Assembly: GCF_014201825.1 (NCBI RefSeq)
Contig: NZ_JACHFJ010000016.1
Location: 1 to 41,795 of the forward strand
DNA length: 41,795 nt
DNA from: Acidocella aromatica
GTDB taxonomy: Bacteria > Pseudomonadota > Alphaproteobacteria > Acetobacterales > Acetobacteraceae
Reading direction: 5' to 3'
A program made the position numbers and the translations under genes. Shown one piece after another: positions 111 through 1,032 of this stretch (within the stretch, counting starts at the first letter, position 1; each line of letters starts with the position of its first letter). The notes beneath the pieces were generated by a model. It did not search any database. It saw nothing but the letters and a program-made list of their open reading frames with translations, and was not told the origin of the DNA.

Positions 111-118
111 AAAACTTT
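111..118. repeat. Left copy of 8-bp target-site duplication
   Basis: AAAACTTT occurs directly outside the left inverted repeat and again at 604-611 outside the right one. Joining the flanks through one copy gives a continuous unoccupied site. Because the duplication begins AAA and ends TTT, the apparent inverted repeat extends to 25 bp, but the true element tip is probably the GG at 119. Confidence 0.75.
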
Positions 119-140
119 GGCAACTATATACTTGACTAAG
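119..140 (+). repeat. Left terminal inverted repeat of cassette
   Basis: These 22 bases are the exact reverse complement of 582-603. The repeat starts GGCAAC and contains TATACT (127-132), a -10-like hexamer that reads into the element. It might help express the passenger gene, though no good -35 lies at the right distance. Confidence 0.85.
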
Positions 141-195
141 CAGCGCTTATTCCGGGTTGTTGCCTGAGTTTGACCCTGCCGACATACTACTGTGC

Positions 196-531
196 ATGAA
201 GAACGTTCAGATCATCGATGGCGCGACAAACGCCACCTATAGTGTTTTCCAGGCTACGGAAGAGGAATACGCGGCGATTTTTCCGAATGACCAAGACCTT
301 GAACTCATTGAGGATTTTTTCTCTCGTTTGGGCGAAGAAGAAGCAATTCTTATATTATCACCTATTTGGACACGACCGATCCTGAAGCGAGACGCTATGG
401 GTATCCACGGCACTCTGTTCTACAACAACGAACTTCGTCGAAGACACATACCCGCGACAAAGCGAGAAGTTGATTGGAGTGACTCAGGGATCAATCAATT
501 CCAGCGCGACCTGTTCTCACGCCACCGCTAA
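196..531 (+). CDS. Uncharacterised passenger protein of insertion cassette
   Basis: This encodes 111 residues from ATG 196 (MKNVQIIDGA...). An in-frame TTG at 157 would add 13 residues, but it lies close to the repeat and the ATG gives a more natural N-terminus. The protein is acidic in its first half (ATEEEYAAIFPNDQDLELIEDFF) and basic near the end (NNELRRRHIPATKRE). It has no signal peptide or membrane segment and no transposase DDE pattern. It is the only gene inside the 485-bp element, and its codons are AT-richer than neighbouring genes, which suggests transfer. From memory it resembles short conserved hypothetical proteins of alphaproteobacteria (VQIIDGA..., ..GIHGTLFY.. pattern); this is unverified. 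Function unknown: it could be neutral cargo, a regulator or an antitoxin-like protein, and nothing in the sequence decides. Confidence 0.7.
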   Translation: MKNVQIIDGATNATYSVFQATEEEYAAIFPNDQDLELIEDFFSRLGEEEAILILSPIWTRPILKRDAMGIHGTLFYNNELRRRHIPATKREVDWSDSGINQFQRDLFSRHR

Positions 532-581
532 TTCCGCTTGTCCGATCCGTATTCGTCAGAACAGAGCAAAACCGCTCGGCA

Positions 582-603
582 CTTAGTCAAGTATATAGTT
601 GCC
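582..603 (-). repeat. Right terminal inverted repeat of cassette
   Basis: This is a perfect inverted copy of 119-140, ending GTTGCC on the plus strand and followed at once by the second AAAACTTT (604-611). Only 19 bases separate that duplication from the start codon at 631, so the element sits in the leader or promoter of the following operon. Confidence 0.85.
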
Positions 604-611
604 AAAACTTT
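604..611. repeat. Right copy of 8-bp target-site duplication
   Basis: AAAACTTT is identical to 111-118 and abuts the right inverted repeat. Confidence 0.75.
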
Positions 612-630
612 CATTAGATGGTTTTAAAGC

Positions 631-1032
631 ATGGTCAAAATCTCCACCTCGCGTCTCGGCTTCATGCTCTGCGCCTTTCTGCTGCCAGGGCTGATCGGCA
701 CCTTCGCCAGCTTCTCCATCCCCGCTCCGGTGATCGACGAGCTGCACCAGCAGGAGGCGCTGGACGCCGTGCTCACAGCACCCAATGCCGCCTCGCAGGC
801 GGCGGCCATCGCCGCGCTGGCGGACAAGGTGGACCCGGACACGGCAGCACTCGTAACCAACGGCACCGGCCCGCTGCCCGCGCGCGTGGCGGCGGCGGAA
901 CAAAACATGCGCCGCGAGGTGGTGGCGCAGGCAAAAGCCGCAGCTTATAAGATAAGATTAATGGTTATCACCATGACCGTGCTGGGAGCGGTGTTTGGTG
1001 TTTTATTAATGGGGCCCAACAAAAATGACTGA
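631..1032 (+). CDS. Small two-helix membrane protein upstream of puuB
   Basis: This encodes 133 residues with a hydrophobic N-terminal helix (about residues 8-30), an Ala-rich hydrophilic middle (about 40-100) and a second hydrophobic helix (about 108-128, LMVITMTVLGAVFGVLLMG). That suggests an inner-membrane protein with a roughly 75-residue periplasmic loop. The stop overlaps the puuB start (ATG 1025), so the two are probably translationally coupled and may act together. No known family is recognised. No convincing Shine-Dalgarno precedes ATG 631, and the insertion cassette ends only 27 bases upstream, which may have removed the original promoter or leader. Confidence 0.75.
   Translation: MVKISTSRLGFMLCAFLLPGLIGTFASFSIPAPVIDELHQQEALDAVLTAPNAASQAAAIAALADKVDPDTAALVTNGTGPLPARVAAAEQNMRREVVAQAKAAAYKIRLMVITMTVLGAVFGVLLMGPNKND

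Follow-up and report, generated by a model that had tools for sequence, protein, structure and literature searches.

A transposase-less insertion cassette with IS1595-type ends and a preferred 8-bp target in Acidocella aromatica and its relatives

The window, that is, the whole 41,795-nucleotide stretch of Acidocella aromatica DNA analysed here, contains near its start a 485-bp element that carries one small gene and no transposase gene, which raises the questions of what kind of element this is, which enzyme would move it and where it lands. The features concerned are the following.

1–95, no strand: end of another insertion sequence (95 bases common to the end of contig C12)
111–118, no strand: 8-bp target duplication AAAACTTT, left copy (this 8-mer, on either strand, at 11 of 17 cassettes)
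119–603, plus strand: transposase-less mobile insertion cassette (MIC), 485 bp (ends, duplication, sister cassettes)
119–140, plus strand: left terminal inverted repeat, IS1595-type, GGCAACTATATACTTGACTAAG
196–531, plus strand: cargo gene, 111 aa (relatives, predicted structure, pN/pS)
582–603, minus strand: right terminal inverted repeat, exact reverse complement of GGCAACTATATACTTGACTAAG
604–611, no strand: 8-bp target duplication AAAACTTT, right copy (sequence)
631–1032, plus strand: neighbour gene beside the insertion (matches in 33 of the 37 other genus genomes)

Reading of the sequence confirms the element that a preliminary description had reported at 119–603, with perfect 22-bp inverted ends, an 8-bp duplication and a single intact gene. 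The IS-like inverted ends enclose DNA in which, according to a listing of the frames in 119–603, none besides the cargo exceeds 58 aa and none is a transposase gene; the cargo gene is intact and conserved, and its product matches no transposase family in a profile search and is, by that test, unrelated to transposition. These are the features of a MIC, not of an autonomous IS1595 element, which has a transposase gene of its own. The GG tips and the 8-bp target duplication are those of the IS1595 family. The GC content is 0.48, against 0.65 for the whole window, and no promoter was found in the cassette. A chance inverted repeat is ruled out by the reversed-22-mer control (see below) and by a scan for ends equal at 13 or more of 18 positions combined with a duplication matching at 7/8 or better, which gave no match at 21 other cargo-gene loci and one at 110 random positions, and in which the element scores 18/18 with 8/8. 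The insertion sequence at 1–95, presumably of IS3 type, has replaced the original left neighbourhood of the cassette: the contigs of the window and C12 both break in it, and the left side of the target site has been lost to it.

An unoccupied site at the orthologous position is found in a relative. The gene at 631–1032 has a match in 34 of the 38 genus genomes (A. aromatica included), and the end motif is absent from all 29 other loci of this gene examined (30 with the present one). In genome G322, the closest by this gene (87% identity), the same start codon is preceded by a hairpin and CCAAAAAACTTTTATTCAAATGGTTT, and the site is thus unoccupied. As the joined flanks of the cassette align with G322 at a score of 46, which is weak beside the values of up to 45 in 560 random pieces, the claim of an unoccupied site rests on the orthologous position, by which it is convincing. 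The earlier statement that collapsing the element leaves a continuous site agrees with this orthologue.

The 22-bp end occurs four times in the A. aromatica genome at up to three mismatches (reversed control, 0): two copies lie here, one on C9 and one on C12, beside different small frames. C9 and C12 stop a few hundred bases past their cassette ends, C12 in the insertion sequence also found at the window start and C9 after a stretch with just 14 bases common to the end of that insertion sequence. All three contigs of this genome with cassette ends (the window, C9 and C12; L006, L007) stop near them. The assemblies compared are drafts. In the genus, the end is present in 9/38 genomes at up to three mismatches and a degenerate end pattern in 12/38 at up to two, with none in either reversed control. 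Outside the genus the ends are rare: they were found in 3 of 299 genomes drawn from the family (A. aromatica, G178 and G235) and in 8 of 395 drawn from the order, three of which lie outside the genus (G031, G235 and G465).

The identity of these ends is given by complete elements. The left end shares 18 to 21 of its 22 bases with the ends of IS1595 elements in G305, G031, G329 and G235. The G305 element (1926 bp, duplication AAAGATTT) has the ends GGCAATTATATACTTAACTAAG and GGCAATTATATACTTAGCTAAG, with two and three mismatches to those in the window, and encodes a 323-aa transposase (PF12762, E 5.9e-37; NF033547, E 9.4e-52) together with a 110-aa cargo protein that is 47% identical to the cargo of a cassette on G317 C3 (E 6e-30). 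The G031 element (2480 bp, duplication AAAACAAA) has a 59% identical transposase. In G235, the ends (one mismatch) are split over two contigs with CAAATCAG outside each, and one of these contigs also contains the beginning of a transposase, 72% identical; in G329, related ends surround a 62% identical transposase, with a 9-bp duplication, AAGTCAGTG, read from the flanks. A DDE_Tnp_IS1595 transposase therefore lies between such ends in G305 and, by similarity, in G031 and (its start) in G235, from which it follows that the cassette ends are of IS1595 type; the suggestion of a new element family was too strong for them. The A. aromatica genome has no IS1595 transposase domain (PF12762) at E 0.001. 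Of the six genomes of the genus in which cassettes have intact duplications, G314, G318 and G326 likewise lack such domains, G309 has three and G317 has one, on an element with other ends. The duplications of the complete elements bearing ends of this type (G305, G031, G235 and G329) all differ from AAAACTTT.

Transposase-less cassettes form a population of 17 two-ended members whose duplications match at 7/8 or better, namely the present one and 16 in six other genomes (A. aromatica, 1; G317, 7; G318, 4; G326, 2; G309, G314 and G178, 1 each). Sixteen, including the present one, were recognized by script criteria; the seventeenth, with a degenerate right tip, was read from the sequence between two members of an array. 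The G178 cassette comes from the family search and belongs to another genus. The cassettes measure 307 to 922 bp and have a GC content of 0.42 to 0.52, compared with 0.57 to 0.64 for the loci read. Between their similar ends lie mutually dissimilar genes, as all-against-all blastp (E 0.01) sorts the 17 into 15 groups with just two pairs joined, and 16 of the 17 main genes fall below every Pfam cut-off, the exception being a YecR-like lipoprotein gene in G317 C26. The same cassette was never found twice within one genome, and thus there is no sign of recent copying. One cassette stands at the same site in two species (G326 C310 and G306 C112) and is therefore inherited; its two copies (L115:1587-2084, L117:21-518) are equal at 459 of 498 bases, both frames are intact, pN/pS is 0.55 and the target duplication has decayed in G306.

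The other copies with different duplications, the full insertion sequence with such ends and the empty site in a close relative, all of which the preliminary description had proposed to seek, have thus come to light, and its view of a mobile insertion cassette with a protein gene in place of a transposase is upheld by the sister cassettes, the complete elements and the empty site. The state of affairs that it had set against this view, with no second copy, a conserved position and no empty sites, is contradicted at each point.

The element is accordingly regarded as a non-autonomous IS1595-family element, a MIC, that is mobile in trans and prefers AAAACTTT (probability about 0.85). Its ends, its duplications, the complete elements and the unoccupied site are directly visible, whereas transposition in trans is a conclusion drawn from them. 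The 22-bp ends would serve as binding and cleavage sites for an IS1595-type DDE transposase, which may come from a complete element at another place in the same cell or enter by transfer, and which would insert the whole unit, ends and small cargo gene together, at an 8-bp target that is duplicated in the process. The preferred target would be AAAACTTT, mostly in a CCAAAAACTTTTG context beside terminator-like hairpins between genes, where an insertion would do little harm. As each insertion leaves two target copies, later cassettes could land beside earlier ones, and head-to-tail arrays would grow. The cassette most likely originated from a cargo-bearing IS1595 element that lost its transposase gene, or from two ends that came to flank a host gene, and the cargo gene would be kept through usefulness to the host or to the element.

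The preference is apparent from the duplications, which consist of AAAACTTT or its complement in 11 of the 17 cassettes; array members are not independent, and these 11 represent nine separate sites. Outside elements, AAAACTTT has eight sites in the 128,816 bases read in stretches of A. aromatica, G317 and G318, and about 0.001 of 17 random insertions would be expected in it by chance. The longer CCAAAAACTTTTG, counted in eight genomes (reversed control, 0 or 1), has 5 copies in A. aromatica, 14 in G317, 15 in G318, 14 in G140, one in G326 and none in G305, G309 and G314. In A. aromatica, G317 and G318, 10 of the 12 cassettes lie in AAAACTTT; the G309 and G314 cassettes, like the complete G305 element, occupy AT-rich 8-mers other than AAAACTTT. 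Two genomes count against this reading of the target: G140 has its 14 copies of CCAAAAACTTTTG yet no cassette end was found there, and G326 has a single copy and both of its cassettes elsewhere.

Of the 49 CCAAAAACTTTTG sites found, 30 were read, and in 29 of these a hairpin core (like TTTTTG..AAAA) lies at most 32 bases before CCAAAAACTTTTG, whereas such a core is present in 7 of 1200 random 32-base pieces drawn from these loci; some sites have a second, long hairpin after CCAAAAACTTTTG. Folding z-scores of the rebuilt targets are −9.2 (G318 C35), −7.8 (G317 C23), −5.6 (G317 C63), −5.0 (G317 C26), −4.6 (G318 C38), −4.1 (G317 C33), −2.9 (G317 C52), −2.2 (G326 C447), −1.5 (G317 C59), −1.3 (G309), −0.7 (G317 C3), −0.2 (A. 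aromatica), −0.2 (G314), 0.0 (G178) and +1.2 (G326 C310), and the targets that fold no better than shuffled sequence include those of A. aromatica, G178, G317 C3 and G317 C59. A module composed of a GC arm, a TTTTTGAAAAAA-like core, a second GC arm and CCAAAAACTTTTG recurs at L128-L157, and looks like a repeated terminator family of the genus. At G318 C35, three cassettes of 307, 645 and 808 bp stand head to tail, their main frames all pointing the same way. One copy of AAAACTTT separates each cassette from the next and one lies at either outer side, and a long perfect hairpin follows. This array probably arose by repeated insertion into the duplicated target.

The start of the cargo gene was placed at ATG 196, though the mechanical reading frame starts at TTG 157, because 19 aligned relatives begin there. 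These relatives, found in genome_contigs, are 42 to 73% identical to the cargo protein; further matches occur in 10 plasmid records (five plasmid loci were examined), and relatives are spread across alphaproteobacteria and beyond. The gene had been called an AT-rich orphan: AT-rich it is, but not an orphan. With pN of 0.18-0.20 and pS of 0.77-0.95 (near saturation) against four relatives, it is under purifying selection. The protein structure is predicted with high confidence (pLDDT 93.7) and has no fold match in PDB; no named family among Pfam-type profiles, PADLOC and PHROGs scores above cut-off. That the cargo is useful to its host is a guess.

Three plasmid relatives, in Ochrobactrum and Rhizobium, lie between tnpC and the right end of end-to-end IS66 elements (L033:2515-5370, L034:1505-5669 and L036:1506-4371) with the order tnpA-tnpB-tnpC-cargo and 8/8 duplications (TTTCTAAA, CTCTGTGG, GTTGGACC). 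In L036, the third of these, tnpC is read in two overlapping frames; the cargo match there, as in the second element, comes as two pieces, the first element alone being plainly intact. The L034 element holds one more annotated small gene. A fourth plasmid locus has a tnpC remnant upstream of the cargo relative, and no such remnant was found near the relative at the cyanobacterial plasmid locus. Around the 19 genome_contigs relatives, the IS1595-type end is absent at up to seven mismatches (with only scattered matches in L009), as are ends of 13/18 with a 7/8 duplication. Two of the cargo relatives, from two genera, lie within an imperfect inverted pair resembling GGCCGCGTGGACAAATT (L010:2898-3369, 19/22; L013:2876-3431, 18/22; best of 15 random positions, 18/22), and L008 has the motif on one side only (L008:3351-3367); plasmid searches did not name the carrier of these repeats, which is possibly a third type of transposon with this cargo family. 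Because cargo families also occur in a complete IS1595 element and, for the family of 196–531, in IS66 elements, such genes pass between unrelated transposons.

These associations allow other accounts of the cassette. It might be the remnant of an IS66 element with the cargo as tail gene, given the three plasmid relatives behind tnpA-tnpB-tnpC in end-to-end IS66 elements with 8/8 duplications, and 8-bp duplications are made by IS66 too. However, those IS66 elements begin GTAAC or GTAAG, whereas the cassette begins GGCAAC and has no tnp genes, and ends of the GGCAAC type flank IS1595 transposases and unrelated genes. An IS66 origin of the ends is thereby refuted and derivation of the cassette from IS66 is extremely improbable; the cargo itself may have resided in an IS66 element at some earlier time. 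The small protein could also be a helper or regulator of transposition, as its association with two or more unrelated families of transposons might suggest. However, the sister cassettes contain 14 gene groups other than this one, including that of the YecR-like lipoprotein, and no IS66 or G305-type IS1595 gene is present in the flanks read around the 19 genome_contigs relatives, which makes such a role very unlikely.

A further alternative agrees with the reading as a MIC on what the element is, and departs from it on continuing mobility: the cassette would be a dead relic, a decaying, internally deleted remnant of a cargo-bearing IS1595 element. The missing IS1595 transposase domain in the A. 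aromatica genome fits this account, as do the other two ends there, which are unpaired and on contigs that stop at or near insertion-sequence DNA, and the record of cassettes, which includes none in multiple copies and one shared by descent. It accords poorly with the perfect ends of the present copy, the 8/8 duplications found at various positions in several genomes, the unoccupied orthologous site in G322, the purifying selection on the cargo frame and the far greater diversity of cargo than of ends, and a loss of mobility is therefore considered rather unlikely.

The MIC that is mobile in trans has counterparts among known systems. Elements of IS231, which belongs to the IS4 family, include MICs that carry another gene. 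MIC231 of Bacillus cereus has IS-like ends and no transposase gene and is activated in trans, according to passages of PMC3129680 and PMC3281130. The cassette resembles it in its ends and lack of transposase and, by inference, in activation in trans; it differs in that the ends are of IS1595 type, nearly every copy has a different cargo, one 8-mer is preferred and an array occurs. Siguier et al. (2009) reportedly described the IS1595 family, including members with passenger genes. Such members are also mentioned, as cited work, in parts of PMC3129680 and PMC12888890, and further excerpts record the 8-bp duplication of the family (PMC8101967), GG tips in the related Merlin and in ISApl4, and AT-rich 8-bp repeats made by one IS1595-family element (PMC12561309). 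Common to that family and the elements studied here are AT-rich 8-bp duplications, cargo and, where the element is complete, a transposase with zinc-ribbon and DDE parts, but 119–603 has no transposase gene, and many copies share one terminator-linked target. Passenger genes in IS66 are exemplified by fosZ in ISPa75 in a passage of PMC12888890; the three Ochrobactrum/Rhizobium plasmid elements have the same cargo family downstream of tnpC, whereas the ends and transposase of the cassette are different. Insertion at repeated intergenic palindromes is shared with IS elements that target REP palindromes (PMC1525189), unlike which the cassettes have IS1595-type ends and enter AAAACTTT beside the hairpin. 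MICs and passenger-gene ISs are recognized (PMC3129680; PMC3281130), and Tn3-derived miniature elements can move genes with the enzyme in trans (PMC13367494). IS1595 elements, MICs and passenger-carrying ISs are hence already known, and the new part is the diversity, the preferred target and the array; searches of open-licence papers showed neither a varied set of MICs sharing one preferred target linked to terminators nor any arrays.

Integron cassettes are small, mostly uncharacterised single genes that stand head to tail, in some hosts without the enzyme. The present cassettes resemble them in the small single genes, the head-to-tail ability and hosts without an enzyme, and have DDE-type inverted ends and a target duplication in place of attC and a tyrosine recombinase. 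A tentative extension, held with less than even confidence, is that IS1595-type transposases acting in trans spread a shared, open-ended pool of small and mostly uncharacterised genes between genomes in an integron-like manner, with landing at AAAACTTT beside terminator hairpins, arrays that persist without the enzyme, trade with IS66 and perhaps a third carrier. If so, bacteria could assemble exchangeable single-gene cassettes into arrays by means other than integrons, and an ordinary DDE IS family would suffice, provided that it has its ends, a preferred target and a transposase acting in trans. Cargo genes could be located purely through their flanking ends (no match at Pfam cut-off exists for 16 of the 17 main genes), and the choice of targets at terminators, where insertion would spare host genes, would provide a testable model.

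Other IS1595 elements of the genus (L064, L067, L075, L076 and L079) have related but distinct ends, and each contains at least one further frame of at least 158 aa besides the transposase.
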